Shown here one piece after another: positions 2,529-23,667 of a DNA stretch of 64,000 bases (positions are counted from its first letter, which is position 1; each line of letters opens with the position of its first letter). The position numbers and the translations under genes were made by a program. The DNA lies in NCBI RefSeq assembly GCF_040218225.1, contig NZ_JAVJQO010000008.1, forward strand, positions 806,001 to 870,000, given 5' to 3'. Below the pieces are notes generated by a model. The model made no database searches, was not told the DNA's origin, and worked only from the letters and a program-made list of their open reading frames with translations. This DNA is from Gracilimonas sp. (GTDB lineage: Bacteria; Bacteroidota; Rhodothermia; Balneolales; Balneolaceae).

Positions 2529-4148
2529 ATGTTGAATATGACCGCTCAAATAACTTCCAGAACATTTCATTCTTTTTTAAGGGAAACGATATTTAAAGCG
2601 CTATTCCTCTGTTCATTTTTCTTATTTCCTGTGACACTACTCGCCCAAATTGGAGAGAAACCTGACGAAATAGCCCCCGCTAATGCACCATTTGAAATGG
2701 CTGAGCTACAGCGCCCGGATATACCAAAACAGACTTTTGATATCAGGGATTATGGTGCCAAAACGCTGGGTGAATCTCCTGAGTTTAAGAATACAGATGC
2801 AATACATCGCGCAATTGAAGCTGCTGAAAATGCCGGTGGTGGTAAAATTTTGATTCCAAAAGGAAAATGGCTGACCGGGCCTATCCATTTAAAAAGTAAT
2901 ATGAACCTGCATCTTGCAGAAGGTGCTGAAGTATTATTCAGTGAAGATAAGAAGGATTATTTACCGGTAGTTCGTCAGCGTCATGAAGGAGTCGAGGCCT
3001 ACAACTACTCTCCCATGATTTATGCTTACAAAGTTAAGAATGTAGCAATTACAGGAAAGGGAGTGTTAAATGCCCAGGGCGATCACTGGTGGGAATGGTT
3101 TGAAGAGCATGGAGCTCCTCCAAGAGCCGTTGCTACAAAAGTGCCATTGTCGCGGAGAGATTGGGGCAAAGGGGCCGGACACGAAGGCATGCGTCCAAGT
3201 TTTGTGGTTTTCTGGAAGTCGGAAAACATTTTAGTTGAAGATATCACACTCAATGATTCTCCAATGTGGAATATTCATCTTATTTACAGCAGCAAGATTA
3301 TTGTTCGTGGTATCACCGTAAATAGCCTGAGAGCTCCAAACGGAGATGGTGTTGTCATAGACTCTTCCAACGACGTGTTAGTGGAATACAATCACTTTGA
3401 GACGGGAGACGATGCCGTTGTACTCAAATCTGGACTGAATGAAGAAGCCCTTGAAATTAACATCCCGACCCAAAATGTAGTGGTTCGTAATTTTGAAGCA
3501 CGAAAAGTAAGAACAGGCAGTGGTGGTGTTGTTTTCGGAAGTGAGACTTCGGGTGGCATCAGGAATGTTTATGTTCATAATGCCTTATTTGATGGCAGTG
3601 ACAGAGGCATTCGTTTTAAAACAGAGCGTGGGCGCGGTAACGTAGTTGAGAATATTTACATCCATGATGTAACCATGAAAAACATCACCTATCAGGCTAT
3701 TAACTTCAATACCTTTTATACCGGGCCTGAAGCTACCGGACCCTCTCCGCTGGTTCGTAACATCAGCATAAAAGATGTTGAAATTGACGGTGTACCTACA
3801 GCCATTGAACTTGTTGGACTCCCTGAAAAATGGCTCGAAAATATCCATCTCGAAAACATAAATGTTATCAACTCTGAAAAGGGAGCCCGAATTACCCGCG
3901 TTAAAAATCTGACGATGAAAAATGTAACCATCAACTCTAAAGAGCAGGCCATGATTGTTGAAGATGCTTATGAGCTTTTCCTTAACAATGTTAGCCTCAA
4001 AGATCAGGCTTCCGGAAACCCCCTTTTATTCAAAGGGCTTCATACCGGAGCAATCTTTACGGATGATTTCCCGCTTAATGACATTACTTTTGAAAATGGG
4101 TTAACCAAAGATATCATCAAAAAAGCACCGCAAGTTCAAGCCTGGTAA
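2529..4148 (+). CDS. GH28 family polygalacturonase-like protein with an altered catalytic motif
   Basis: A secreted right-handed beta-helix protein of about 539 residues, with a signal peptide ending near VTLLA-Q. It has the GH28 Pectate_lyase_3-like start (FDIRDYGAK) and the motif series NGD (near 271-273), GDD (near 293-295) and RFK (near 362-364), which supply the acid/base Asp residues and the substrate-binding Arg/Lys. The third motif, normally GHG, reads TGSGG with Ser near 331 (codon 3519-3521). The paralogue at 21940 keeps AHGG there. The enzyme may therefore be altered in activity or specificity. An upstream TTG at 2487 is possible, but the ATG at 2529 gives a conventional leader. 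A hairpin terminator follows. Family assignment is firm; substrate is inferred. Confidence 0.88.
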   Translation: MLNMTAQITSRTFHSFLRETIFKALFLCSFFLFPVTLLAQIGEKPDEIAPANAPFEMAELQRPDIPKQTFDIRDYGAKTLGESPEFKNTDAIHRAIEAAENAGGGKILIPKGKWLTGPIHLKSNMNLHLAEGAEVLFSEDKKDYLPVVRQRHEGVEAYNYSPMIYAYKVKNVAITGKGVLNAQGDHWWEWFEEHGAPPRAVATKVPLSRRDWGKGAGHEGMRPSFVVFWKSENILVEDITLNDSPMWNIHLIYSSKIIVRGITVNSLRAPNGDGVVIDSSNDVLVEYNHFETGDDAVVLKSGLNEEALEINIPTQNVVVRNFEARKVRTGSGGVVFGSETSGGIRNVYVHNALFDGSDRGIRFKTERGRGNVVENIYIHDVTMKNITYQAINFNTFYTGPEATGPSPLVRNISIKDVEIDGVPTAIELVGLPEKWLENIHLENINVINSEKGARITRVKNLTMKNVTINSKEQAMIVEDAYELFLNNVSLKDQASGNPLLFKGLHTGAIFTDDFPLNDITFENGLTKDIIKKAPQVQAW

Positions 4149-4231: not shown

Positions 4232-5149
4232 TTACCGATTAGCCCGTATTGCAATGTTATGAAAATCACCGGCAGAGATTTTCGTAAAGCCACTACCTTC
4301 AGGCAGTTCACTAATTTGTCCCTCATCATTTCTTTCCCAGCCCCAGGCTACAATAGAACCATCTTTGCGCAGAGCCAAACTGTGAGAGTAACCCGCTGAA
4401 ATTGCTTTAAAGTCTTTTTCTTTGGGTGTAGAACTTACTTCCTGTTTAAGATCCCAACCCCAGGCAGCTATACTTCCATCCTCCCGTAGAGCCAGACTAT
4501 GACGGGCACCGGCTGAAATAGCAATAAAGTTTTTATCTGAAGGAGTGTCTTCAACTGAGCCAAACATATCATCTCCCCAGGCTACTACTGTACCATCCGA
4601 CCTCAATGCCAGGTTGTGGTTGGCGCCGGCAGAGATTGCTATAAAATCATTGCCTTTTGGAGTATTACTAATCAACCCATTTGTATTCCAACCCCAGGCT
4701 GAGATACTACCATCTTTGTGTAACGCGAGGCTATGATTTCCACCCGCCGAAACGGCTATAAAACCACTACGCTTTGGGATCACACCTCTTGCGTACTGTT
4801 CGTTGATGGTATAATCCCACCCCCAATAAACAATGGTACTGTCTTCGGTTAAGGCAATGTTGTGATTACTTCCTGCGGCTACATCAATGAAGTTATGCCC
4901 TGTTGGAGTATCTGAGACCTGTTTATCTCCATCAGTACCCCAGGCGACAATACTTCCATCATTTTTAAGAGCTACGCTATGTAAATAACCAGTTGATATA
5001 TCCATAAAATCAGTTCCTGAAGGAGTTTCTGAAACTTGCCCACGCTTGTCACCTCCCCAGGAAACCAACTCTCCATGAGATAAAATTTCAGGGAAAAAAA
5101 GTGAAATCATTACAGGTATTACTAGAAATATTTTATGCTGTAACTTCAT
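4232..5149 (-). CDS. Secreted RCC1-repeat protein
   Basis: A 305-residue protein with an N-terminal signal peptide (hydrophobic core to about residue 25) followed by about six repeats of roughly 42 residues. Each has the pattern AISAG..H.LAL..DGS..AWG, typical of RCC1 (regulator of chromosome condensation) repeats, which fold as a beta-propeller. No catalytic motif or T9SS tail is visible. The repeats fill the whole mature protein, so it is probably a binding or scaffold module. It converges with the GH28 gene. The terminator of the LRR gene lies between it and its upstream neighbour, so it probably has its own promoter. A role in pectin binding is only a contextual guess. Confidence 0.8.
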   Translation of the reverse strand: MKLQHKIFLVIPVMISLFFPEILSHGELVSWGGDKRGQVSETPSGTDFMDISTGYLHSVALKNDGSIVAWGTDGDKQVSDTPTGHNFIDVAAGSNHNIALTEDSTIVYWGWDYTINEQYARGVIPKRSGFIAVSAGGNHSLALHKDGSISAWGWNTNGLISNTPKGNDFIAISAGANHNLALRSDGTVVAWGDDMFGSVEDTPSDKNFIAISAGARHSLALREDGSIAAWGWDLKQEVSSTPKEKDFKAISAGYSHSLALRKDGSIVAWGWERNDEGQISELPEGSGFTKISAGDFHNIAIRANR

Positions 5150-5190
5150 AATAAATGTATAACTGTTTCTCTATGGGTTTATAAGTTCTT

Positions 5191-5228
5191 ATAAAAAAAC
5201 CCGTATAGCAATTTACAGCTATACGGGT
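5191..5228 (-). terminator. Rho-independent terminator after the LRR gene
   Basis: On the minus strand an 11-bp perfect stem (ACCCGTATAGC pairing with GCTATACGGGT, at 5218-5228 and 5199-5209) is followed by a run of seven T. It ends the TonB receptor/LRR transcript 58 bp past the LRR stop. Confidence 0.9.
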
Positions 5229-5285
5229 GGTTGTGTTGTGGATTCTTGCTGAGTATAATTGACTCAGCAATGGCTCGAAAACCAA

Positions 5286-7607
5286 TTATTTAATCAGCAT
5301 CATTTTTTGAGTGGAAACACGGTTTCCAGCTTCAAGCCGATAGATATAACTTCCACTAGCGAGTGCTGAAGCATCAAAATTTACTTCATAAGACCCAGCA
5401 GCTTTAAAATCACTGACTAATGTAGCCACTTGCTGTCCAAGCATATTATATACAGTCAATGATACGTTTGCAGCTTCCGGTATATCATATTTAATACTGG
5501 TAGTTGGGTTGAATGGATTTGGATAGTTCTGTTGTAAAGAAAACCTGTTTGGTGTTCCTGGATTTTCAACAGAAGTACCTCCACACGATACATTGGTTCG
5601 TGAAACATTATAATAGGCTACCGGATAGCTTTCGGCTGCAAAGTCAGGAATTCCCGCAATCCAATCTTCGAAAGCAGCATCTGATGGTTCACAAATATCG
5701 GTGCCATCATATTCTAGTACTCTCATGAAAATAGCATCCGTGAGTCCTATAGGCAGTTCACCAGTAAGGTCCGCATTTCCAGATAACTGAAGTGCAGTTA
5801 ATACACTCAAATCATCGGTTACACGACCAGCATCTGCTAAAGAAGCAGGTATCTCGCCTGACAATTGATTGTTTGACAGATTGAGTGAGTCAAGCTGTAT
5901 GGTATTCCCCAATGAAGCAGGAATGCTGCCCGTCAGGTTGTTATCATCAAGAGCCAGAGTTGACAGGTTTACAGCAATAAGGCCTTCACCAAAGAAAGAT
6001 GGTATGGTACCTTCGAGTCCTAATCCGCCAAGCCCCAGATATGAAAGGTTATCCATGTCAGCAAGCCAGGATGGGATGCTGCTCATTTCAATACCCGTTC
6101 TGGATAACTCCAGCGTACTCCAATTCTTGGTTTCAAACCAGCTTGGTAATGTTCCTGAAAGCTCGGGGTTATCACTTACATTAAGTGACTCAAGTTGCAG
6201 ATTTATCAGGTTATTATCAGATATATCACCTGTTACTCCAACGTCCTCCAGAGTCAGAGAAGTAACGTTACCAATACTTCCTCCTATCCAGGCTGGAATG
6301 TCGCCAACCTCCATATTTGGATTATCGATAAGTGTGATTTCCTGAAGACTATTCACAACTGAAAAAGCTTCGGGCAATCCACCTTCAATATCCAGATCTT
6401 CGAGATGAACGGATACTAAATCAGCGTTGGCCCATTCTGATGGTATGGTACCTGTAATATTCAAGTTTGAGAAGTGAACATCCTCCAGGTTGGCAACGTC
6501 TCCTACCCAGGCTGGAAGTGTTCCGGTCCAGCCGCCACCGTAAAAATTAATTCTTCTGAGGCTAGGCATTACGGAAAGATCCGGGATATCATCAGTGGTT
6601 TCTCCCGCACCAATGGTATCTCCTTCACCACCGATTATAAACTGTTCCAGTGCTTCCATCTGTGCCAGTTTTGGAGATATAGATCCTGTGCGATTGGTAT
6701 TTTGAATTTGGAACCGAATCAATGTTTCACCCCATGAATCATAGATCCATTCTGGAATTGGACCGGGATCCAGGTCATTATTAGCAATTCGATAGTATTC
6801 CATTCCTTCCAGGCTAGACCAGTCGGGAATTGGACCTGTTAACCGATTATTATGAAAATACACTCGATTAAGAGTCGTCAACTCTTCATGTACATTAGGA
6901 ATCTGACCTGTGAACCGATTGTCATCAACATAAAAACGTGTTAGTGCCGGCCATGAGCCATTACCCCCAAGCGTTTGAGGCAGGGGTCCTGAGAAGTAAT
7001 TCTGACGAATGCGAAACTGTTGCATAGACTCCATTTGAGAGAATGCATTCCAGTCAACTTCTCCGGTAAATAAATTTGTTCGGACCAGTAAAAACTGAAG
7101 GCGGTTAAGATTAGCTATTTCTGGCGGAAGGCCTCCTATATGAAGGTTAACATCTGCTTTAAAATCCTCCAGAAATTCGAGGTCTTCCAAATCTGCAGGA
7201 AGTGGACCCGGAACTGTCATATTATTCCGCGGCATATCAATTACAGTAACACGCCAGTCGGCAGGTTCGCCATCGCCGGCAACGTTTGCTACTTCTTCAA
7301 TGCCAACCCATGAATAGACAGGAGCTTCCGTTAGCCACCCGGAATTATCAATCCATTGATCGCCATTTGTAGATTCGTAGTATGCAACAAGAGCTAGTGA
7401 ATCGTCTTCATTTATAACATATCCTTCCCCTGGTTGGGCAAATGAATTAGATGTCATAAATGTAGTCATCATTAGCATTAAAAAGATGCTGCTAATAGCC
7501 TTGAATAGTTTTGAACGAGAAAGATACAGCATGTCATCTGCTCTTCCCTGCTTTTTATTTTTCGTATCGAATGTTAGCATAATGCTCGGTTTTGATTTAT
7601 GGTTCAT
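5286..7607 (-). CDS. Secreted plant-type leucine-rich-repeat protein with T9SS sorting domain
   Basis: A 773-residue protein. After a signal peptide ending near NSFAQ comes an N-cap segment with ALVAYYESTNGDQW and SGWL. About 20 leucine-rich repeats of the plant-specific LxxLxLxxNxLxGxIPxxL pattern follow, for example LSNNQLSGEIPASL near residue 590. The C-terminal 85 residues are a type A T9SS sorting domain (NYPNPFNPTT, then VYNMLGQQV, ending KMMLIK), so the protein should cross the outer membrane and be released or anchored at the surface. It begins 76 bp after the TonB receptor stop, with no terminator between, so the two are probably co-transcribed. The signal peptide could also begin at the internal ATG at 7532. 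LRR binding partners cannot be read from sequence. Confidence 0.88.
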   Translation of the reverse strand: MNHKSKPSIMLTFDTKNKKQGRADDMLYLSRSKLFKAISSIFLMLMMTTFMTSNSFAQPGEGYVINEDDSLALVAYYESTNGDQWIDNSGWLTEAPVYSWVGIEEVANVAGDGEPADWRVTVIDMPRNNMTVPGPLPADLEDLEFLEDFKADVNLHIGGLPPEIANLNRLQFLLVRTNLFTGEVDWNAFSQMESMQQFRIRQNYFSGPLPQTLGGNGSWPALTRFYVDDNRFTGQIPNVHEELTTLNRVYFHNNRLTGPIPDWSSLEGMEYYRIANNDLDPGPIPEWIYDSWGETLIRFQIQNTNRTGSISPKLAQMEALEQFIIGGEGDTIGAGETTDDIPDLSVMPSLRRINFYGGGWTGTLPAWVGDVANLEDVHFSNLNITGTIPSEWANADLVSVHLEDLDIEGGLPEAFSVVNSLQEITLIDNPNMEVGDIPAWIGGSIGNVTSLTLEDVGVTGDISDNNLINLQLESLNVSDNPELSGTLPSWFETKNWSTLELSRTGIEMSSIPSWLADMDNLSYLGLGGLGLEGTIPSFFGEGLIAVNLSTLALDDNNLTGSIPASLGNTIQLDSLNLSNNQLSGEIPASLADAGRVTDDLSVLTALQLSGNADLTGELPIGLTDAIFMRVLEYDGTDICEPSDAAFEDWIAGIPDFAAESYPVAYYNVSRTNVSCGGTSVENPGTPNRFSLQQNYPNPFNPTTSIKYDIPEAANVSLTVYNMLGQQVATLVSDFKAAGSYEVNFDASALASGSYIYRLEAGNRVSTQKMMLIK

Positions 7608-7683: not shown

Positions 7684-10600
7684 TCAAAGTCTGTAACGCA
7701 ATCCTAAAGTAATTTCCCTTCCATTTAACTCTGTTGTATAAGGATAAAGATCCGGTTTGTAGAAGTAGTCACGTTCTAAGTCATTCAGAATATTCGATGC
7801 ATCAAGCCACACCTGGAAATTTTCGGATATCCAGTATCTTGCTGTAAAGGATAAATCTCTTGTGGCACCATTAAACTGGTCGTAGTAAACATTCCCGACA
7901 GAAACAAGATCCTGAGCATTACTTCCGTAAGAAGAAATTGCTGCTGCCGACCACTGATAAGTAATTTGTGTGAAGAACTCTCCTTGGGTGTAGTCGAGGC
8001 CTGCATTAAAAATATGTGGCCTTTGCCCTTCCAGAGGAGTTATATATTTGTAGTCAGGATCCACATCCTTGCCTACAAATTCAAGGAAATCAGCGATTCC
8101 ATGCGTGTAACGTTCATTAACAGTTCTGCCCACATCAGCAATTGATTGTGAATAAGAATAGTTTACATAGGTACCAAGATTGCTAAGGAATCCGGGTAAA
8201 AATTCCAGGTTTTGTTGCCATGTAAATTCTGCACCATATACAGTTGCTTGGTCACCATTACTAAAGCTATTGACGTTCCATCTTCCCGTAAGTCCTTCAT
8301 CATTATTGTCAGCCGAGTAGTCAACTACTTGATTTGAGGAGAACACAAAGTCTTTCATATCCTTATAGAAAAGCCCGATCGTAAACTGACCAACATTCAT
8401 AAAGTAATGCTCAAACAGAATATCGAAGTTGTTGGAAAGCATCGGTTCTAAATTCGGGTTTCCTCGTTGAATGGTATTAGTAGCAAAATTGCGTTGTATA
8501 TAAGGGTTTAGTTGACCAAAGTTCGGCCGACCAATAGAGCGGGAATATGCAAATCGAAGATTTGTGAAATCGCCCAGTGAAAATACTGTCTGAAGATTCG
8601 GAAATAAGTTCAGATAGTTATTAGTTTCCGTAATATCAGTAGCTCCCTGAAATACTCCGGAACTGCTAATTTCACTTTCTCTTCCAGTATAACTGTTGTC
8701 GGTATATTCCATACGCACTCCACCTAAAACAGTGAACCAATCAATTTTGAAGTCAGCCATTATATAAGTAGCGTAGGTATTTTCGTTGGCGTTGTATTTA
8801 GAGGTTTCTGTAGCTAAAGCCCACTCGTCTAAATCGGTTTGGAAGCGCGGGGTTTGAGTAAGGTAGAATTTTTTAGCCCTGTCTAAGTCGATCAACCAAG
8901 GTATGGAGTACGTTTGTCCGCTTCGATTAAATATTTGCCAATTGGCGTTTTCAATTTGCTGAAAGTTTGTGATGTTAAGATTGGAGCTGTAATCTCTTAA
9001 CAATCGCTCACCAATTCCGCGCTTATAGGTAAGCGAGGCATTCAATCCTGTTTTAAATGATCCATTGGAATATGGAATCTCTATGTCAAAAGTAGCTTCA
9101 AAATCATTATCCACGCTACTGTTTACGCGATGATCCATCACATCTGTTCCTTCCGTGGTTATGTCGGCTGGAGCAGGATAACCACTGCCTGAGTAGCGAC
9201 TCCATGGAGCTACCTGAACGGTTGGATTCCATCGATCATCCGTATTAAAGATAAATTCAAAATCAGAACTGGTTGAAAAATTCATCCGATATTGATCTTC
9301 ATTGAAGCGGCCGTGTCCCCACCCCAGCTTATATTCAATATCCATATTATCCAGCCGATGCCGTCCACCAGCTTGAACGGTATATTGTTGAGTAATAGAT
9401 TGATCCAGTCTTGGGTTGTAACTGATACTACCTTGGTTTTCAGCATCCGGGTCGTTCGCACCATCCGGATCACCGGTATAAGTAGGTTCAGAATAATTGG
9501 CCATCCTGGGATTGTAACTAACGTTATACTGATACTCCGAATCGTTCTCTACATTGAATATACCTTCTATATGATAAGTGCTTATTTCACTAGGCTGAAA
9601 AGTAAACTGCAGTCCGGTTCCGATTCTCGTCGGAATGTTTACATTAAACTCATTAGTTACATCAGATAATATATCTACTACATTTGGCGCTGTACTTTCA
9701 AAGGTCCGGCTTGCCCATTCAGTGGTAAAAACTTCACTTGCTGATGGGTCTTTCTGGTAACTGAAATTGAATCCAAATGAATAATCATCATTAGGACTAT
9801 CGCCATAATTTAATGAGGCTCTTTGCTGGGTTCCGGCATGTCTGATGTAGCGATCCTGAAAACCGCCTCCCAAACGTATATTCATATCTCTTTCTCCGCC
9901 AACCGGGCGACGGGTACTTATATTAATTACTCCCGCAAGAGCATCTGCTTCCATGTCAGGGGTAATCACTTTGATCACTTCAAGATTCTGAACCATATCG
10001 GCAGAAATGGTACTTAAGTCAACACTTCGGTCCCCCCCGGTTGCTCCCATTCGCTGCCCGTTCATCGTAATATTCGCAGAACCTGCACCAACACCCCGAA
10101 TATTGCCACCCCCATGCCCCATTCCAGCTATCCTCGAAAGAGCTCCGGAAACAGTGTTGTCGGCAAAGGTTTCAATTTGCTCAGCCGATATCACATTTTT
10201 GATATTTACTGATTTACGCTGTTCACTCAGTGCTCGCGATTGCCCCCTCTGGCGTGCAGTTACCTGAATTTCTTCTCCTTCAATAGTAGTACTGGAGAGT
10301 TCCATATTCAGCTCAAGGGTTTCTCCTTCTTCCACGGTTATTTCTAACTCTTTGGTCCCGAATCCTAAATAACGGAAGATCAGAGTATAATTACCGACGG
10401 GTACATTTCTTACTACATACCGGCCATCTATGTCGGTAGACGCCCCTTTATCAGTCCCCTGAACAATTACATTTGCCCCAATTAACGCTTCTCCATTTTC
10501 CGCATCGGTTACTTCCCCCCGAATAACTCCGGTCTGAGCTAAAACATTAGTTGGTAAAACCATCAAAATGGCTAGCACCAAAACAGAAAGAGTTGCTAGA

Positions 10601-10692
10601 CAGAGTGACTTTTCTTTTCCAGAAGCGCTTTCAAGATTTCCTAAACGAAAGGCTGAAACTGAACTATTATTTCGACTTAGATTACTGAGCAT
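7684..10692 (-). CDS. TonB-dependent outer-membrane receptor with N-terminal carboxypeptidase-regulatory-like domain
   Basis: About 1002 residues. A signal peptide ending in VLAQ is followed by a carboxypeptidase-D regulatory-like domain (GVIRGEVTDAENGEALIGAN, roughly 50-135) and a plug with IRGVGAGSANITMNGQRM. A PDMEADALAGVINISTRRP block follows, characteristic of the TonB-Xanth-Caul receptor type rather than canonical SusC. The rest is a 22-stranded-type barrel with an aromatic C-terminus (GLRYRL). No SusD partner follows; the next gene is the LRR protein. A TTG at 10704 would extend the frame by four codons into the operator, so the ATG at 10692 is preferred. It probably imports pectic oligosaccharides (inferred from the neighbourhood). 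Confidence 0.9.
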   Translation of the reverse strand: MLSNLSRNNSSVSAFRLGNLESASGKEKSLCLATLSVLVLAILMVLPTNVLAQTGVIRGEVTDAENGEALIGANVIVQGTDKGASTDIDGRYVVRNVPVGNYTLIFRYLGFGTKELEITVEEGETLELNMELSSTTIEGEEIQVTARQRGQSRALSEQRKSVNIKNVISAEQIETFADNTVSGALSRIAGMGHGGGNIRGVGAGSANITMNGQRMGATGGDRSVDLSTISADMVQNLEVIKVITPDMEADALAGVINISTRRPVGGERDMNIRLGGGFQDRYIRHAGTQQRASLNYGDSPNDDYSFGFNFSYQKDPSASEVFTTEWASRTFESTAPNVVDILSDVTNEFNVNIPTRIGTGLQFTFQPSEISTYHIEGIFNVENDSEYQYNVSYNPRMANYSEPTYTGDPDGANDPDAENQGSISYNPRLDQSITQQYTVQAGGRHRLDNMDIEYKLGWGHGRFNEDQYRMNFSTSSDFEFIFNTDDRWNPTVQVAPWSRYSGSGYPAPADITTEGTDVMDHRVNSSVDNDFEATFDIEIPYSNGSFKTGLNASLTYKRGIGERLLRDYSSNLNITNFQQIENANWQIFNRSGQTYSIPWLIDLDRAKKFYLTQTPRFQTDLDEWALATETSKYNANENTYATYIMADFKIDWFTVLGGVRMEYTDNSYTGRESEISSSGVFQGATDITETNNYLNLFPNLQTVFSLGDFTNLRFAYSRSIGRPNFGQLNPYIQRNFATNTIQRGNPNLEPMLSNNFDILFEHYFMNVGQFTIGLFYKDMKDFVFSSNQVVDYSADNNDEGLTGRWNVNSFSNGDQATVYGAEFTWQQNLEFLPGFLSNLGTYVNYSYSQSIADVGRTVNERYTHGIADFLEFVGKDVDPDYKYITPLEGQRPHIFNAGLDYTQGEFFTQITYQWSAAAISSYGSNAQDLVSVGNVYYDQFNGATRDLSFTARYWISENFQVWLDASNILNDLERDYFYKPDLYPYTTELNGREITLGLRYRL

Positions 10693-10705
10693 AACTTCCA
10701 ACAAC

Positions 10706-10717
10706 TTAACCGGTTAA
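10706..10717. promoter_or_regulatory. AACCGGTT-class operator before TonB receptor (site 3, perfect)
   Basis: Perfect 12-bp palindrome TTAACCGGTTAA, 13 bp upstream of the receptor ATG. At that distance a bound repressor would sit in the 5' leader or at the transcription start. Confidence 0.7.
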
Positions 10718-10815
10718 ATAAACTACTATAATTAACAATATTCTGTTCTAAGAATCAAAATTTATTCTTTTAATAATCCTTTAATTCACTCATTAAATGA
10801 ATAATAAGAGCCATT

Positions 10816-12831
10816 CTACTTGATCAATGTCATTTTTCTTGTAAGCGAAAACATGGCATTTCCAGAGTTTTCAGCTGATGTGGCTGTAAGGCGATAAATG
10901 TAAACCCCTGATGCCAGGGAACTCGCATCAAACTGAACCGTATGAAATCCTGCTGACTGATTCTCATTTACAATTTGAGCTACTTCACGTCCTGCCATAT
11001 CATACACCCTGACTTCTATTTTTGCAGCCTGAGGTAATCCATAACTTATATTTGTAGTTGGGTTAAATGGATTTGGGTAATTTTGTGATAAAGAAAATTC
11101 CACTGGAACACCATCTGCTCTCTCAGTTGAAGTGGTTACTTCTGTTTCAAAGAATTCAAAACTTGTCCATTGCCCGGTTCCGGTTTCATTTTTACCTCTC
11201 ACTCTCCAGAAAAACGTGTCATTGCCAGCAAGCTGTGAATCGGCAGGAAAAGCATATAAAGTATCTTCAACCGTGGTTTCATAAACAATATCAGCCCATT
11301 CTCCTGCTCCTTCCCTTATCTGTAGATCATAACTATCAGCAAATGTAGCTTGCGTCCACTTAAATTCGGGCTGAACCGATATCCCGGATTTTCCAATAGG
11401 AGATATTAAAGCAAGGTTTCCTGGTGCTGGTGTAAAATCTCCTTGTTCCTGAATAGAGTGAATATAATTTTCAAGATTTGTATAGCCATTTGTGGCGATG
11501 GTTTTGCCATCTTCGGGATCTTGAGGATCTAATTCATTATCAGTTTCCCATTCATCCGGCATTCCATCCCCATCGGAATCTTGAGGATAAGGAGCTGAAA
11601 GTAACTCCGGCCATCCTCCTACATCTTCCTGACTATCAATAATTCCCGAATTAGAGCCGTATGTACCTCCAAAAGTTGTAGTACCGGTTTCAACCTCATT
11701 TACAATTCTTGCATCAATTGTATCTCTTCTGGGCAATATGGCGCCGGCATACTCAAGTACTCGTAAGTAAGCTTCTTCGGCTGTCTCAAAAGATTCCAAA
11801 GCCGGAGCTTCAAAAGGTTCATCCACTCTTATTAGATCCTCTTCTAATTCAGACAGGTTTTGAACACCTCCATCCCAGTTATCAGCGGTTATTCCCGGGT
11901 ATCCATCAACATAATTATCAGCGATGTACCAGTGGCTTCCATTGTTTGGGTCAGCATCCAGAATACGGTCCCGGTCATCAGTTGCAGGACCGGCTTTATA
12001 ATAATTAGCTACCATATTATGATTGCCGTCTTCACCACCGTAAGCGCTATTAAATCCCCAGTTATAAATTACATTATTCCGGAAATCAACTAATTCGGTT
12101 TGTGGAGTTGTCGTATATCTTGCGCCATTGAAACGAGGATTTCGACTGGTGTGATGTGCTAATAAATTATGATGGAAAGTAGCTCCCGCTCCTCCCCATA
12201 TCCCACCGTAACCGTGTTCATCTTTAGAGTGAATGGAGTTATACATACTCTCACTAAGGATGCTCCACTGAAGGGTAAAGTTTTCATTGTCATAAAAGCT
12301 TCCAGCTTCATCTACCGACCAGCTCATAGACACATGATCGATAATTACATCTTTGTTCTCCCTACCCCATAGTGCATCCAGTCCATCCAAATCTCCACTA
12401 CCTATGTCTCCCGGACGAAACCGTACGTATTGAATGATAACATTATCTGCATCAATAACTGTTGAACGCCCGCTTATAGCAATACCATCTCCAGGGGCAG
12501 TTTGTCCAAATATTGAGATGGAATCGTTTCTGATTCTGAGATCTGTTTCAAGCTCTATTGTTCCAGATAAAGCAAACACAATGGTTCGGGCTCCTTCCAT
12601 TTCAACACCATACCGCAAACTGCCTTGTCCGGAATCGTCTAAATTTGTTACGGTATACACTTCACCACCTCGTCCGCCTGAGGTATATTTTCCAAACCCC
12701 TCGGCTCCGGGAAACGCTAACTGTTGCCCCATACCATCAACGGTAAAAAACATAAACAGAAGGATGATTATGCTCTTGTAAAATAGTCCTGAGGTAAAAT
12801 CCTGAGCAATATTTTTAAACTGATTTTTCAT
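10816..12831 (-). CDS. PL1 pectate lyase with Ca-binding segment, FN3-like domain and T9SS sorting domain
   Basis: A 671-residue secreted enzyme. After the leader, the mature start QLAFPGAEGFGKYTSGGRGG is the standard opening of Bacteroidota-type PL1 pectate lyases. Beta-helix landmarks include IIDHVSMSWSVDE near residue 165 and HHTSRNPRFNGAR near 230, containing the catalytic-type Arg. A DSDGDGMPDEWE acidic, Ca-binding-like segment lies near 425. Next come a fibronectin-III-like domain (about 470-570) and a T9SS type A tail (NYPNPFNPTT, ending KMTLIK). It should act outside the cell on polygalacturonate. It lies 43 bp downstream of the second tandem TonB receptor, at the end of that operon. 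A shorter paralogue at 26158 lacks the FN3 and T9SS parts. Confidence 0.92.
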   Translation of the reverse strand: MKNQFKNIAQDFTSGLFYKSIIILLFMFFTVDGMGQQLAFPGAEGFGKYTSGGRGGEVYTVTNLDDSGQGSLRYGVEMEGARTIVFALSGTIELETDLRIRNDSISIFGQTAPGDGIAISGRSTVIDADNVIIQYVRFRPGDIGSGDLDGLDALWGRENKDVIIDHVSMSWSVDEAGSFYDNENFTLQWSILSESMYNSIHSKDEHGYGGIWGGAGATFHHNLLAHHTSRNPRFNGARYTTTPQTELVDFRNNVIYNWGFNSAYGGEDGNHNMVANYYKAGPATDDRDRILDADPNNGSHWYIADNYVDGYPGITADNWDGGVQNLSELEEDLIRVDEPFEAPALESFETAEEAYLRVLEYAGAILPRRDTIDARIVNEVETGTTTFGGTYGSNSGIIDSQEDVGGWPELLSAPYPQDSDGDGMPDEWETDNELDPQDPEDGKTIATNGYTNLENYIHSIQEQGDFTPAPGNLALISPIGKSGISVQPEFKWTQATFADSYDLQIREGAGEWADIVYETTVEDTLYAFPADSQLAGNDTFFWRVRGKNETGTGQWTSFEFFETEVTTSTERADGVPVEFSLSQNYPNPFNPTTNISYGLPQAAKIEVRVYDMAGREVAQIVNENQSAGFHTVQFDASSLASGVYIYRLTATSAENSGNAMFSLTRKMTLIK

Positions 12832-12874
12832 AAAAATAGAATTAATAAAGTGAGTGAGTGATAAATAATATGAA

Positions 12875-15430
12875 CTAAAGGCTTACGCGAACTCCCACAT
12901 TAAATTCAATGCCGTTTCGCTGATAAATACTGGTTGGGTAATTTGATCGGCTGAATGCATATTCTACTTGTTCTACATTAAGCAGGTTATATATGTTTGT
13001 CCAAAGCTGTACCTGATCAGACAAATCAAACTTTGCTGTTGCCGACAATTCCTGATAACCATCCTGGTAACGATCAAAATAAACTTCTCCTCCACTTACA
13101 GATGGCGCTGGCTGGGTATTTTCTTCCAGATTTGACAACAGCTCCGCAGACCAGTGATAGGAAACCTGTGCAAAAAACCTGTCGTTGTGGTAATTCAATG
13201 CGGCATTTACCACGTGTGGACTTTGTCCGGGAATATCAGTTTGATCTCCCCGCGCATTTTCAAAATCAGACTCTGACCAGGTATAGTTCGCATAAGCTCC
13301 AAAATTTTCCAAAAACCCTGGCAGGAAACTCAACTGTTTCTGTACAGTAACTTCAGCACCATAAACGGTTGCGGTGTTTTCTGAATTTTGATAGGTACGA
13401 TTGGTTCCGGTTATTTGCGTCACTCCATCGTCAAATAATGGCTCAAAATAGGTGTATTCTCCCTGGTTGATTTGAACTTGGGTACTAACAGGTTCTATAA
13501 ATCCTGTCATCATTTTATAAAAACTACCGATCGAAACAAGTCCTCCTCCTGCAAATTCATAGTTGAGCATTAAATCAATATTGTCAGATATGATGGGATC
13601 CAGATTAGGATTTCCTGCAAAAATCGAAGTATCCTGAGGTGTTAACAATTCAAAGGGAGCAATTAAATTAAACTCCGGGCGAGAGATTGTCCGTGAATAT
13701 GCGGCATTTACATTTGCCTGTTCATTAACTTCGAATTTCAACTGGGCATTCGGAAACAGGTACGTTTGATTTGTAGTTGCTGAAGTATCAGAAGCATCCT
13801 CAAACTGATTAAATCGATTATACTCAACCACCCGTCCTTCATAAGATGAAGTGGTATGTTCAACCCTAGCTCCAATAATTACGGTAAGAGGATTGAAGTT
13901 CAATGTGGTCATACCGTAGGTGCCATATATATTTTCATTACCAAGGTAATTGTATATCTCGGAATCTTGATAATATGCTCTTTCGTCGAGCCTCATATTT
14001 GGGATACTGGCTTCAAAAAATGAAAGTGCTTGTTGAGGATCTGCAAGCCGATCTAAATTATACCGGCCATCAAAAATACTCAGGCTGTTGAGATTTCCCT
14101 CTTCAAATCCTTCCAGATCAAGTAAACCTTGAAATTGGTAGTGGTACTCACTAAAAGCTCCAAGTTCGTTTGCATCCTGTTCTTTGAAAATAGCGCTTGC
14201 TCCTGCTTTCAGGCTTCCTACACTAATTGGAAATTCAGCATTAACCCGCACGCTTACTTCCTGGTCTCTATAATTATCTATAATGTAGTTCATCTCTTCC
14301 AGGTCCAAATCTGCAGGAATTGGTTTCGCATCTAACGGTGAAGCGGTTGGACGTTTGGTATTTGAATCATTAATAGTGTATTCAACACCCGTAGCAAGAA
14401 ACGGAAATAAGTTCTCTGTCCTGTCTACAATACTTTGAGATAGCCCTGCCTGATAATCCAACTTAAACGAATCGAAGTTATTCTGCCCGCCGGCCTGAAA
14501 GGTAAATAATGAAGTGTTTCGCTGTTCAAAGTTCAAATCATAACCAAAATCAGCTTGCGTTCCTGTAGTTGTTTGATCTTCCCAATCGCCATTTGCTATC
14601 CAGTTGTAGGAATGATCAGATCTTTGCTGTCGATTGATATTTACAATTCCATGAAAGTAATAGCTTGAAGTTTCAGAGGGGGTATAGTTCAACTGAAGAT
14701 TACTGGCAAAACGATTAAATCCTTCACTTTGAAAACCCGGAGATAAAGTTTCAATTACATCAGTTGGCCCAGAACCCAAATCTACTACTCCATAACCTAT
14801 CCCTAAAGATTCCCATGCGCGTTGCTCTCTTTGATAGTTTACATCTATAGCAAGGCTGAGATTATCGCTGACCGGACCTGTAAATCGCAGCCAGCTTCGT
14901 CCAGTTGCTCCTGTTTCTTGTTGGTATTTTGGATTCAGGCCACCGCCAAGGCTTCCTGAAATAAACGTCTGAGTGGTAGTTGGTTGATATGTTTTTAAGT
15001 TAACTGCACCGGCAAATCCATCCGCATCCATATCGGGTGTCAATACCTTGATCCACTCAATGGTTTTCACCACATCAGCAGAAATAGCTCCGGGGTTCGT
15101 AATTCTGTTATTTCGACCCGTTGCTGCCATTCGCTGGCCATTAACCATCATATAAAAATTGTTGTAACCAGTACCCCGAAAACTCAGCTGGCCGTCCCGG
15201 TTAACTTGAACTCCGGGTAATCTTATCAGGCTGTTTTCGATAGTGAAATCTCCAAAATTACTGATTTGACTAGCGGTCAAAGAGTCCACAAAAAGCTGGT
15301 TTTCCGCTTCTGTTTGTCCCATCACTGAATGCATTTGTGAGGAACCCAGCAATAACATCAACATCATGAGCAGACCGATGATAGACTTACTCCTTATTTC
15401 AACCATGCTATGTAGAGATCTTTTTTTCAT
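12875..15430 (-). CDS. TonB-dependent receptor, second of a tandem pair
   Basis: About 851 residues from the ATG at 15430. A TTG at 15481 would give an overlong leader overlapping the previous gene, and the ATG directly precedes a good signal peptide (SIIGLLMMLMLLLG...VMGQ). There is no carboxypeptidase-regulatory domain; the plug begins almost at once (ENSLIRLPGVQVNRDGQLSF), then MNGQRMAATG and LTPDMDADGFAGAVNL as in the TonB-Xanth-Caul type. The barrel ends in aromatic/hydrophobic alternation (FNVGVRVSL). It resembles the upstream receptor at 15471 throughout, for example ENIYGTYGM versus EQIYAAYGM, so the pair looks like a tandem duplication. No SusD is adjacent. The ligand is probably pectic oligosaccharide by context. 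Confidence 0.88.
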   Translation of the reverse strand: MKKRSLHSMVEIRSKSIIGLLMMLMLLLGSSQMHSVMGQTEAENQLFVDSLTASQISNFGDFTIENSLIRLPGVQVNRDGQLSFRGTGYNNFYMMVNGQRMAATGRNNRITNPGAISADVVKTIEWIKVLTPDMDADGFAGAVNLKTYQPTTTQTFISGSLGGGLNPKYQQETGATGRSWLRFTGPVSDNLSLAIDVNYQREQRAWESLGIGYGVVDLGSGPTDVIETLSPGFQSEGFNRFASNLQLNYTPSETSSYYFHGIVNINRQQRSDHSYNWIANGDWEDQTTTGTQADFGYDLNFEQRNTSLFTFQAGGQNNFDSFKLDYQAGLSQSIVDRTENLFPFLATGVEYTINDSNTKRPTASPLDAKPIPADLDLEEMNYIIDNYRDQEVSVRVNAEFPISVGSLKAGASAIFKEQDANELGAFSEYHYQFQGLLDLEGFEEGNLNSLSIFDGRYNLDRLADPQQALSFFEASIPNMRLDERAYYQDSEIYNYLGNENIYGTYGMTTLNFNPLTVIIGARVEHTTSSYEGRVVEYNRFNQFEDASDTSATTNQTYLFPNAQLKFEVNEQANVNAAYSRTISRPEFNLIAPFELLTPQDTSIFAGNPNLDPIISDNIDLMLNYEFAGGGLVSIGSFYKMMTGFIEPVSTQVQINQGEYTYFEPLFDDGVTQITGTNRTYQNSENTATVYGAEVTVQKQLSFLPGFLENFGAYANYTWSESDFENARGDQTDIPGQSPHVVNAALNYHNDRFFAQVSYHWSAELLSNLEENTQPAPSVSGGEVYFDRYQDGYQELSATAKFDLSDQVQLWTNIYNLLNVEQVEYAFSRSNYPTSIYQRNGIEFNVGVRVSL

Positions 15431-15470
15431 GTTATTCGTTCTGCTTTTTTCTGTGTCTCTATCGTTTAAA

Positions 15471-18152
15471 TTATAAGTCAAAACGCACTCCTATTCTTAA
15501 ATCAAGTCCACTGCGTTGGTACGTACTTACAGGATATTCACTTCTGTTACGGATGTACTCAATCTCAGAAGAATTCAGTAAATAGTTTGCGTTTGCCCAA
15601 ACCCTGAACCGATCAGACAACTCGTAACTTGCCGCAGCTGATAACTCTTCATATCCATCCTGATATCTATCCAAATAAAACACCCCTTGGCCTAAAGAGG
15701 GAGCTCGTTGCTGTACAGATGCAATGCCTGATAAAGACTCTGCACTCCAGTGATAGGATATCTGCGCATCAAAACGTTCAATAGTATAGTTCAATGCGCC
15801 ATTTAACACATGAGGACTATGACCGGTTAAGGCCATTTTGTCTCTATTATCGACTGATCGATAGCTTGATTGTGACCATGTGTAGTTGGCATACACGCCT
15901 AAGTTTCTGAAAAAGCCAGGAAGGAACTGTAAACGTTGCTCTACAGCAATCTCTACGCCATAAAGCGAGGCCGTTTCGGAGCTATTTACATAAACTTGTT
16001 CTTCGTATCCATCAGAATTTGTACTAAGTCGCTGTTCGATGAAGTTAGTGAGTGATTTATAAAATCCACCTATTGAAAGAATACCGGAGTTCCCCGTTTC
16101 TTGCTCAAACATCAGGTCTATGTTGTCCGACATCACGGGTTCAAGTAATTGATTACCTCTGAAAATTGTGGAGTCCTGATTATCAATTCGTTCAAATGGT
16201 GTTTGGGGGAAATAGTCGGGTCTGTCGATGGTTTTGGAATAAGCTGCTTTCACACTGCTGGATTCAGACAAACCATAGTTCAACTGTAAGTTTGGAAACA
16301 GGTTTAACAGACTTTCTGATTCAGTGACTTCCTGAACCGGCCCGGGATCTCCATTTTCATCAAAATCAATCTGGTTACCCTCCAATTCAGTAATGGAATA
16401 TTCTACCCTGACTCCCAGTTTTACACCCAGGTCTCCAAACTGCAGATCTCCCATTCCATATGCTGCATAGATCTGCTCTCCGGTGCTGTAATTCTGAATT
16501 TCAGACTGATATGCATTAAGATTATCATCTCCGGTAAAAAGCGGACGCTGACTCTCCAAAAACATCCGTGCGTTTTCAGTATTCACAAACCAGGGTATCC
16601 GGTAACTCTCATCAATAACATCAATATCACGATTTGGTTCGCGCAGCATGTTAAAGCTAATCATGCGAAGGGTACGATTGTACTCAAAGCTGCTTTCGTC
16701 ATAATCACCATCTTTCTGAGACCAGCGTGAACTTAATCCTGCTTTTAAAGCTCCTGAAGAGATGGGTATTTCAACATCAGTCCGAATTGATATCTGATTA
16801 TTTACATGCTCCTGAATAGTACGATCAAAGTTTTGCCCTATCATAAACTGACGGTCAACGGTTCCATCATCCAAAATTTGGACTTCACGATTTGTGAAAG
16901 TCATTTGAGGCCGATTCTTAGTACCTAAATCAAGTGCATAGTTAAGCCCCTCTATCTGAAAGGGAAATACATAGTCCTGATTCTCTGATCTTCCCTGACT
17001 CCAACCGGCATTATAACTGAATATAAAGGTATCGAATTCATGTTCTGCTCCACCCTGAAATGCAAGCTGGGTAGTTTTAAATTCATTTCTGCTAGCCTCA
17101 TGCCTGAAAGCCCCTTGCTCTCCATCTGCCCCGGTAGTGGACTGATCAATAAAATCTCCACCTGTAATCCAACTATCCTGATGAGAAATAAAAGTCCGGT
17201 CGTTGCTATTTAAAAAGCCTCTGAAATAGTAAGAGTTGTCTTCATCAGGGTTAAAGTAAACATCTGTTGAGGCAGTAAGTCTGTTTTCCTGATCAATTCT
17301 AACAGCTGGTGAAACCTGTTCAAAAACATCCACAAATCCATTCCCAAAATTCTGAGCACCAAAACCGAGTTGTAACTCCTCCCGGGTATTAATAGCCTCA
17401 TGGTACCCAACATTCACAGACACAGACAATTCATCTGTAAAATTCTCTGCATACTGAATCCAGCCCCGACTTCCCGGTCCGGTTCTGCTGATATACTTGG
17501 TATTGGCTTCCCCACCTGCCATAGCACTTACTGTTCGCTTTTTGCCAGCAGGAAGCGCACGCCTGGTGTTTAAATTCACTAATCCCGCAAGTGCATCTGC
17601 ATCCATAGAAGGATCAAGAACTTTTGTTACCTCAATGCTCTGAATAACATCAATTGAGATGTCAGAAGGATCTATATTCCGTGTTCCAGCCCCGGTATTT
17701 GCCAGCCTTAACCCATTATAAGAAACTCCATATGCATGGTATCCAACTCCCCGAATATTTATTTCACCATTTCTGGATGATTGAACACCAGGGATACGAA
17801 TCAACGCTTCTTGCAGTGAAATATCTCCAAAATCAGCGAAATCACTGAAATCAAGCGAAGAGGAAAAGAAGGGATTAACCGAAAAATTGTAGGGTCCTGT
17901 AAGATAAATCTTGGTCGTATCTGCTTCAGGCTCATCCTGAGCATGCAGGTTGGTCGGGGAAAGCACTGACATTATCATTATTAAAAAGCACCCAGCCCAG
18001 GCTATCTGAGTAAAACGATGGATAAAGAGGCTGCTTACCGGTGATGTCTGTTCCCGTTTACTGATCATGACTCCAATATCTTTTACTGAACTTTTGATTT
18101 GGTGCGTCAAAGCGCTTCCAAATTGTTTTTTATTTTTCCGAGTGTTTACCAT
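15471..18152 (-). CDS. TonB-dependent receptor, first of a tandem pair
   Basis: About 893 residues, with a long positively charged N-terminus and a hydrophobic stretch ending in LHAQ. As in its downstream paralogue the plug starts directly (EALIRIPGVQSSRNGEINIRG) with no carboxypeptidase-like domain. The block LDPSMDADALAGLVNLNTRR is present, and the barrel ends in LRIGVRFDL. It is first in an operon with the second receptor (40 bp gap) and the PL1 lyase. A perfect AACCGGTT operator lies 60 bp upstream of the ATG. An internal ATG at 18068 is a possible alternative start. Outer-membrane import of pectin fragments is inferred from the operon. Confidence 0.88.
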   Translation of the reverse strand: MVNTRKNKKQFGSALTHQIKSSVKDIGVMISKREQTSPVSSLFIHRFTQIAWAGCFLIMIMSVLSPTNLHAQDEPEADTTKIYLTGPYNFSVNPFFSSSLDFSDFADFGDISLQEALIRIPGVQSSRNGEINIRGVGYHAYGVSYNGLRLANTGAGTRNIDPSDISIDVIQSIEVTKVLDPSMDADALAGLVNLNTRRALPAGKKRTVSAMAGGEANTKYISRTGPGSRGWIQYAENFTDELSVSVNVGYHEAINTREELQLGFGAQNFGNGFVDVFEQVSPAVRIDQENRLTASTDVYFNPDEDNSYYFRGFLNSNDRTFISHQDSWITGGDFIDQSTTGADGEQGAFRHEASRNEFKTTQLAFQGGAEHEFDTFIFSYNAGWSQGRSENQDYVFPFQIEGLNYALDLGTKNRPQMTFTNREVQILDDGTVDRQFMIGQNFDRTIQEHVNNQISIRTDVEIPISSGALKAGLSSRWSQKDGDYDESSFEYNRTLRMISFNMLREPNRDIDVIDESYRIPWFVNTENARMFLESQRPLFTGDDNLNAYQSEIQNYSTGEQIYAAYGMGDLQFGDLGVKLGVRVEYSITELEGNQIDFDENGDPGPVQEVTESESLLNLFPNLQLNYGLSESSSVKAAYSKTIDRPDYFPQTPFERIDNQDSTIFRGNQLLEPVMSDNIDLMFEQETGNSGILSIGGFYKSLTNFIEQRLSTNSDGYEEQVYVNSSETASLYGVEIAVEQRLQFLPGFFRNLGVYANYTWSQSSYRSVDNRDKMALTGHSPHVLNGALNYTIERFDAQISYHWSAESLSGIASVQQRAPSLGQGVFYLDRYQDGYEELSAAASYELSDRFRVWANANYLLNSSEIEYIRNRSEYPVSTYQRSGLDLRIGVRFDL

Positions 18153-21939: not shown

Positions 21940-23667
21940 TTACTTCTCCTGTCGTTTTAACACGCCTTTCCCCACATTGGGACCTATACTTGTTTCCTCA
22001 GCGGTATTAGTGAATCTGACGCCCATCAACCTAACAGATTCCGAAAACGGACCAACCAGACGTATACCTGTTCCAGCCCCGGCGTCTTCGGCAAATCCTA
22101 TATTCATATCCTCCAGTGAGATACTATGCACGTTGTTCAAAAACAAAACCGGACCTTCATTCACTTCTATGTCTACGTTTTTCATTAAAATATCTTCAGC
22201 ATCCATGATCATACCTCCACGGCTGGCAGTCAGCTTCATATTCTCCATGCGAACATTCCGGACACTCATCTCTGGAAGTCCCTGAATCCAAAGAGCCGTT
22301 TTTGAATTAAAAGAGTATACATTTTTAATACTGATGTCCCGGAATCGGGGCGTTTCTTCATTGACTTCAGGAATTTGTTCCTGCAGCTTCTTCTTGTCTA
22401 CTATTTCAGCCTTTTGGTTGGGAGTAGGCATTTCTCCACCGTAATAAAGGTTAAAGCGAATGGGTTCCGTTACCATATCTATCATGTGAATATTTTCAAT
22501 CTGTATATTCTCTACCACTCCGCCTCTTCCACGCGTGCTTTTAAAACGAATACCTACATCTGTTCCCATAAAAGTAAGGTCGGCTACATGAATGTTTCTG
22601 ACATCACCCGACATTTCACTGCCTACAACAAATCCCCCATGCGCATGATATACGCTGTTATCTCTTATAATCACGTTTTCTGTTGGAACACCACGTTGCC
22701 GGCCGTCTTCATTTTTACCTGACTTAATACATATAGCATCATCGCCCACATCGAAGCTGTTATTATAAACAAGTACATTTTTACTGGATGAAATGTCGAG
22801 ACCATCTCCATTTTGGGCATACTCGGGATTTCGTACCGTCAGATTTCTGAGAATAATATTCTCGCTCATCAGTGGATTGATATTCCATGCGGGCGAATTC
22901 TGAAATGTAGGACCATCCAGAAGGATATTCTTACTTTCCCGAATACTTACTAAAACAGGCCGAAGAAAATCTCTTACTTCTTCATAATCCTCTTTGGTCT
23001 CCCTGTTTGGAGGAACATTAAACGTACCGGGATCTCCCATTTTTGAAGCTTCAGTTGGATACCAAACCCGACCGTCATCCGATAAAACACCGCCCGATTC
23101 AATCAGTTCTTCCCAATGGTCTTCTGTAACCTTGAATTTCTTAACTGGGCGCCAGGCTCCGCCAGACCCATCAAAAATACCTTCCCCGGTTATCGCGATG
23201 TTTTCAACGCCTTTGGCATAGATCGGAGAAATCGCTCTCCATGTATCCAAGCCTTCAAACACCGTTTCAACCAGCGGGTAGTGATCAAAATTATCACTGA
23301 ACTTTACGAGAGCCCCTTTTTCAACATGAAGGTTAATATTGCTCTTCAGAATGATTGGCCCGGTAAGCCAGATTCCTCTTGGAATCACAACCGTACCTCC
23401 GCCATTATTACTAACATCATCAATAGCCTTAGAAATGGCTTCTGTGTTTAGTGTTTCTCCATCCGAAACGGCCCCAAATTCCGTGATATTTACGGAGTAG
23501 TCAGGAAATTCAGGAATGGGAATTTCATCCATTTCAAACGGAAATTCGGCATAGTAATGAACTGGGACGGGAGCAAAGTAATCTTTGCTTGTGTTGTTAT
23601 TATAGGTACAATTAACAGAGCCAATAGTAAGCAATAGAATGAACGACAGATTGATTAATCGTTTCAT
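21940..23667 (-). CDS. GH28 polygalacturonase, lipoprotein
   Basis: 575 residues. The N-terminus MKRLINLSFILLLTIGSVNC ends in a Cys suited to lipidation, so it is probably a periplasmic or surface lipoprotein. The beta-helix carries all four GH28 motifs: NGDGLDI, GDDAICIKSG, AHGGFVVGSE (His kept) and GIRFKS. It probably releases galacturonate from (oligo)galacturonides, and the exo-type look of FVVGSEMSG suggests exo-action, but this is inference. Its start overlaps the CE12 stop as TAATG, and its stop is one base from the CE8 start, showing tight operon packing. Confidence 0.92.
   Translation of the reverse strand: MKRLINLSFILLLTIGSVNCTYNNNTSKDYFAPVPVHYYAEFPFEMDEIPIPEFPDYSVNITEFGAVSDGETLNTEAISKAIDDVSNNGGGTVVIPRGIWLTGPIILKSNINLHVEKGALVKFSDNFDHYPLVETVFEGLDTWRAISPIYAKGVENIAITGEGIFDGSGGAWRPVKKFKVTEDHWEELIESGGVLSDDGRVWYPTEASKMGDPGTFNVPPNRETKEDYEEVRDFLRPVLVSIRESKNILLDGPTFQNSPAWNINPLMSENIILRNLTVRNPEYAQNGDGLDISSSKNVLVYNNSFDVGDDAICIKSGKNEDGRQRGVPTENVIIRDNSVYHAHGGFVVGSEMSGDVRNIHVADLTFMGTDVGIRFKSTRGRGGVVENIQIENIHMIDMVTEPIRFNLYYGGEMPTPNQKAEIVDKKKLQEQIPEVNEETPRFRDISIKNVYSFNSKTALWIQGLPEMSVRNVRMENMKLTASRGGMIMDAEDILMKNVDIEVNEGPVLFLNNVHSISLEDMNIGFAEDAGAGTGIRLVGPFSESVRLMGVRFTNTAEETSIGPNVGKGVLKRQEK

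Follow-up and report, generated by a model that had tools for sequence, protein, structure and literature searches.

The 64,000-nucleotide window analysed here, a stretch of the genome of Gracilimonas sp. (contig NZ_JAVJQO010000008.1, positions 806,001 to 870,000), encodes a GH28 protein, P0001, in which a serine, Ser331, takes the place of the histidine of the conserved GHG motif. In the sequence alignments, Ser331 and three extra residues preceding it mark one GH28 clade and are not a quirk of a single gene. We propose that P0001 is an exported, probably periplasmic, exo-acting GH28 alpha-D-galacturonidase, which trims homogalacturonan oligosaccharides in a pectin-use locus and represents a His-less subfamily (probability roughly 0.6). 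The proposal builds on what was observed directly, namely the sequence, the clade, the invariant Asp, R-x-K and Tyr residues, the predicted fold and the genomic setting.

Ser331 replaces the histidine of motif III

The GH28 genes of the window and the motifs of P0001 are located as follows; rows are aligned GH28 sequences, classed as Ser or His by the residue opposite Ser331.

2529–4148, + strand: GH28 gene, 539 aa (P0001); translation, PF00295 E 3.2e-29
2580–2648, + strand: hydrophobic N-terminus, probable Sec signal peptide, approximately residues 18–40; read by eye
3339–3362, + strand: motif I, N271-G-D273-G-V-V276-I-D278; from the alignment, with D273 as the first catalytic Asp by motif
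3408–3413, + strand: motif II, catalytic Asp pair D294-D295; present in 30/30 Ser rows
3498–3527, + strand: motif III loop A-R-K-V-R-T-G-S-G-G, residues 324–333, with a 3-residue insertion relative to His-type GH28
3519–3521, + strand: Ser331, codon AGT, replacing the GHG His; codon read
3612–3620, + strand: motif IV, R362-F-K364 (R-x-K), carboxylate binding; present in 30/30 Ser rows
3717–3719, + strand: Tyr397, conserved Tyr; present in 30/30 Ser rows and 50/51 His rows
21940–23667, − strand: the other GH28 of the window, with the His retained; profile and alignment

The reading frame at 2529–4148, whose sole stop is the terminal one, gives a product that includes EARKVRTGSGGVVFGSETSGGIRN; an alternative start is possible at a TTG at 2487. 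P0001 scored 102.5 bits with the PF00295 profile against a curated cut-off of 22.9, which places it in GH28. The N-terminus is probably a Sec signal peptide through which P0001 is exported, and AlphaFold places a low-confidence helix at residues 5–31. The three Asp residues expected of GH28 in the NxD and DD motifs were found as D273, D294 and D295, and the R-x-K of polygalacturonase-type GH28 as R362 and K364. The motif-III His (GHG) of polygalacturonase- and xylogalacturonase-type GH28 was absent, with Ser331 in its stead. Tyr397 would correspond to the active-site Tyr291 of A. niger PGII.

The first-pass annotation had reported the replacement of this His by Ser at 3519–3521, and the AGT codon, in the sequence context TGSGGVVFGSETSGG, confirmed it. 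The phmmer alignment of P0001 to 3jur pairs Ser331 with the histidine in SHGGLVIGSEMSGG. In 5olp, a His stands at equal spacing before GSE by our own reading, the phmmer gap placement there being shifted. The accompanying statement that the other GH28 motifs are intact proved only nearly correct. The Asp of the NTD motif is kept, but the motif itself reads NGD, Val276 stands at the second Asp/Asn position of N-x-D-G-x-D/N, and three residues are inserted before the loop. Position 276 was V in 28, I in 1 and N in 1 of the 30 Ser rows, and D in 22 and N in 16 of the 51 His rows. Leu308 also differs, the His rows having R (29/51) or W (17/51) there. The second GH28 of the window, as had been noted, does retain the His, in the form AHGG (row L001). 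It shares with P0001 the locus, the family and the NGD variant of motif I, and differs in its His, in having no insertion and in belonging to a separate clade.

The Ser-type proteins form one GH28 clade

Both the alignment and the modelling that the first-pass annotation had suggested were carried out; Ser proved to mark one GH28 clade, and the nearest solved folds were those of exo-galacturonidases. Among 91 extracted proteins, 89 were placed in a maximum-likelihood tree, the fragments L088 and L114 being omitted. The tree, inferred by a fast procedure that flagged long branches, was built without the loop columns, and it joined the Ser rows and L069 in one group of 31 with 98% SH-aLRT. By residue, the tree rows comprised 51 with His, 30 with Ser and the insertion, and 8 with something else, L069 among these. 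Ser is thus present in 30 of the 31 clade rows, the remaining one being L069, and outside the clade His is retained in 51 of 58 rows. A sequencing error or a broken gene is ruled out by the open frame together with this recurrence of Ser, which also rules out a chance substitution in a single gene.

Within the clade, none of the 30 Ser rows departs from D273, D294, D295, R362, K364 and Y397, and the loop V327-R328-T329-G330-S331 is invariant as well. We read 31 Ser codons, two of which were repeats of the L055 and L063 genes; the 29 distinct genes had AGY in 28 cases and TCC in 1, and Ser has therefore outlived one codon-class change. The first-pass annotation had named, as what would refute its reading, a Ser variant shared by many active GH28 members of the nearest subfamily. 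Ser is indeed near-universal there, while a limited search found no characterised member of the clade with a measured activity, and we recognised no report of a Ser-type bacterial GH28 in a limited search of the open-access literature.

Identity to P0001 within the clade extends down to about 48%, and its members span Balneolales, Marinilabilia-type Bacteroidota, Marinimicrobium, Opitutales and Planctomycetota. A contig scan of genomes yielded 39 loci, of which 25 were Ser (VRTGSGG), 12 His, 1 changed (L069) and 1 broken off before the site (L088); since one of its two peptide patterns was VRTGSGG[VI]V, the scan favours Ser types. Its titles named Gracilimonas, Balneola, Fodinibius, Marinimicrobium, Marinilabilia, Anaerophaga, Geofilum, Opitutales, Phycisphaerae and other Planctomycetota, as well as MAGs labelled KSB1 and Ignavibacteriales. 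Two further sets are free of this pattern bias. P0001 was searched against 96 relatives and, in an overlapping set, 394 genomes from the phylum; every one of the 12 close homologues recovered, among them that of the window itself, has Ser. Another 40 Bacteroidota GH28 matches, hand-picked from the listing and with the His position read from its spacing before the GSE motif, had His in 36 and Ser in none. The four others were L148 (Ala), L150 (Cys), L153 (Gly) and L154 (Gly), which shows that His has been lost elsewhere too, but that this subfamily is distinguished by Ser in combination with the insertion. One more relative outside the clade, L083:619-1923, has Asn at the motif-III His position.

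The gene is patchy in its distribution, with Ser-type copies in 11 of the 128 genomes of the order (G000, G003, G004, G005, G021, G028, G041, G055, G058, G084 and G444). No viral carriage was found when viral contigs were scanned with P0001, a scan that reaches close relatives only.

The nearest solved structures are exo-acting galacturonidases

The AlphaFold model of P0001 (pLDDT 88.3) is a predicted right-handed parallel beta-helix. It matched 3jur with Z 47.4 and rmsd 1.9 and 5olp with Z 46.3 and rmsd 2.0, over 415 residues each, and the rhamnogalacturonase 1rmg with Z 30.4. The closest solved structures by sequence were also 3jur and 5olp, both exo-acting. The former, the exo-polygalacturonase of Thermotoga maritima, shares with P0001 the fold (36% identity), the three Asp, the R-x-K and the segment EG-x-E-x-YNYSP, and differs in the motif-III His, a shorter loop, Asp for Val276 and Arg for Leu308. 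This exo-type segment was present in 24/30 Ser rows compared with 23/59 others, which is a weak test. The structure 5olp, which we take to be the BT4155 galacturonidase of Bacteroides thetaiotaomicron, resembles P0001 in fold, but it keeps the His, in GHTLLGIGSE by our own reading of the alignment. The best NCBIfam model for P0001 was likewise that of the BT4155 alpha-galacturonidase (NF049892), at 319.2 bits, below its cut-off of 800.

P0001 is encoded in a pectin-use cluster

The divergent neighbour of the GH28 gene is a pectate lyase gene.

509–2323, − strand: PL2 pectate lyase; PF06917 E 2.7e-197

A PL2 gene also lies beside the GH28 gene in L052, L053, L076 and L075. Together with PL2, the locus encodes two CE8, the second GH28, a GDSL esterase (CE12-like, by our own label), GH43, GH88/105, KduI and a KduD-like dehydrogenase, as well as UxaE, UxuA, a PfkB kinase, KDPG aldolase and a TRAP transporter. 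A PelZ-like T9SS protein in the locus scored below the cut-off of that model. The window locus is a pectin-use cluster. When the remaining pectin-locus genes of the window were compared by tblastn with the DNA available for the 27 clade loci from the contig scan, 15 of these loci, some of them on short contigs, showed no homologue, a point against the proposal. The search of the host genome for rhamnogalacturonan-related families covered rhamnose isomerase (RhaA), the PL11 C-terminal domain and the GH78 core, and none of the three had a match.

Several neighbouring genes were recorded in their own right. Between the GH28 gene and the receptors, at 4232–7607, are an RCC1-repeat protein and a leucine-rich-repeat protein with a T9SS tail, and proteins of both kinds also occur near GH28 in L052 and L076. 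The pectin locus includes, at 7684–18152, three TonB-dependent receptors that belong to the TonB-Xanth-Caul type (TIGR01782), and SusD had no match among the scanned proteins of that region. A 448-aa protein of the locus (26158–27504) has no Pfam match, and 42% relatives of it occur in L057 and L083. In an Opitutales MAG, L060:11577-12389 encodes a protein whose C-terminal domain is a mutarotase of the rhaM type, and its neighbours are the GH28, an SSF symporter and a homologue of KduI; the protein could be a uronate mutarotase.

Proposed activity and alternative substrates

The role of the motif-III His is discussed in PMC8952511. According to that paper, His223 is strictly kept in polygalacturonases and xylogalacturonases and missing from rhamnogalacturonases, for a reason given there as not known. 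In fungal enzymes, it adds, the His is believed to govern the surroundings of the Asp pair, and a His mutant of a fungal endo-polygalacturonase was almost inactive. By analogy with that enzyme, a loss of catalytic power in P0001 is possible. Since the rest of the catalytic site is kept, however, the Ser-type GH28 is probably a working variant.

P0001 would hydrolyse GalA-alpha-GalA by the usual inverting mechanism with D273, D294 and D295, acting in an exo fashion after export. The reshaped loop V327-R328-T329-G330-S331 would do the job of the His for the Asp pair, with the invariant R328 and the longer loop as the obvious candidates to replace it. The R-x-K is thought to bind galacturonate carboxylates, as stated in PMC6102391. 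With this motif kept, the nearest folds exo-acting, the locus devoted to pectin and the host lacking matches to RhaA, PL11 and GH78, GalA next to the scissile bond is the best guess. That Ser-type proteins constitute a His-independent branch of GalA-GalA-cleaving GH28, with the other catalytic residues and R-x-K kept and an invariant Ser set in an extended loop that also has the invariant R328, is a tentative proposition to which we give slightly less than an even chance.

The substrate may instead be a modified galacturonate, as Val276 and Leu308 differ in addition to Ser331. The loss of polar groups at these three positions (His to Ser, Asp/Asn to Val276, Arg/Trp to Leu308), which change together in the clade, would free room at the subsites flanking the scissile bond for a methyl-esterified, O-acetylated, xylosylated or 4,5-unsaturated residue. 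The presence of CE8, GDSL, GH43 and PL2 genes in the same locus agrees with such a substrate. It is a guess for which the substitutions are the sole basis, and xylogalacturonan hydrolases, according to PMC8952511, keep the His; we regard it as unlikely.

The first-pass annotation had suggested a changed specificity, for example toward rhamnogalacturonan. An altered activity is possible, but its rhamnogalacturonan form is disfavoured by the R-x-K, the exo-type folds and the gene content of the host. The His is missing from the fungal rhamnogalacturonases treated in PMC8952511, 1rmg included, and from the three BT4146-type rhamnogalacturonidase loci (3/3), and among clade loci there are rhaM-like and RhaT genes close to L060 and a PL11-like gene close to L073. 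The same BT4146-type loci, however, have lost the R-x-K that P0001 keeps, and none of them has the Ser-Gly-Gly loop. BT4153-type loci, moreover, keep His at the Ser331 position (2/2), so that loss of His is no simple mark of rhamnogalacturonan enzymes. Scores of P0001 with the rhamnogalacturonase equivalog models of the BT4153 and BT4146 types were below the cut-offs (NF049899, 162.4 bits vs 650; NF049898, 134.3 bits vs 500), and 1rmg was a weaker fold match than the exo-galacturonidases. For the fungal endo-rhamnogalacturonases, PMC8952511 proposes that Lys196 of 1RMG, beside the catalytic Asp, stands in for the His. The residue before D294-D295 in P0001 is Gly293, and this solution is therefore inapplicable. 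Taken with the absence of RhaA, PL11 C-terminal and GH78 core matches from the host, these data make a rhamnogalacturonan hydrolase improbable.

Constraint on the clade and a decayed orthologue

The other suggestion made earlier, a non-catalytic carbohydrate-binding protein, has in its favour the need of the fungal endo-polygalacturonase for its His (PMC8952511) and the constrained appearance of L069 after loss of its catalytic residues, but it fits poorly with the invariance of the three Asp, the R-x-K and the Tyr across all Ser rows from several phyla, and we consider it very improbable. What the loss of catalysis looks like is illustrated by L069:10001-11536 of Marinimicrobium sp. ABcell2. 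This orthologue of the Ser-type GH28 is open over 526 aa, and its genome has no second match with an E of 1e-20 or below; its gene order is that of its relative L055, 10 of whose 11 ORFs match. It is changed at D294, R362, K364 and Y397 and in the Ser loop, and judging from these changes L069 is likely a non-catalytic relative.

Estimates of dN/dS (NG86; dS was saturated in several pairs, for which no value is given) were 0.043 for L068/L077, 0.066 for L060/L061 and 0.243 for L055/L063, a pair with Ser in both. The values for L055/L069 (0.194, with dS 1.48) and L063/L069 (0.177) fail to separate L069 from the Ser types in these pairs. As they are no higher than the value between L055 and L063, L069 may have been kept for another role.

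Implications for the GH28 family

Judged by its sequences, the Ser-type clade is a real, conserved GH28 subfamily, of which we know no characterised member. As a natural Ser subfamily in which the other catalytic residues of polygalacturonases are kept, it opens the function of the motif-III His to a direct test, with the decayed orthologue L069 as a naturally occurring contrast to the Ser types. For the annotation of GH28, it advises caution: loss of the His should not be read as inactivity or as rhamnogalacturonan specificity. If true, a His-independent branch would break the rule by which the His goes with polygalacturonan cleavage and its loss with rhamnogalacturonan cleavage.
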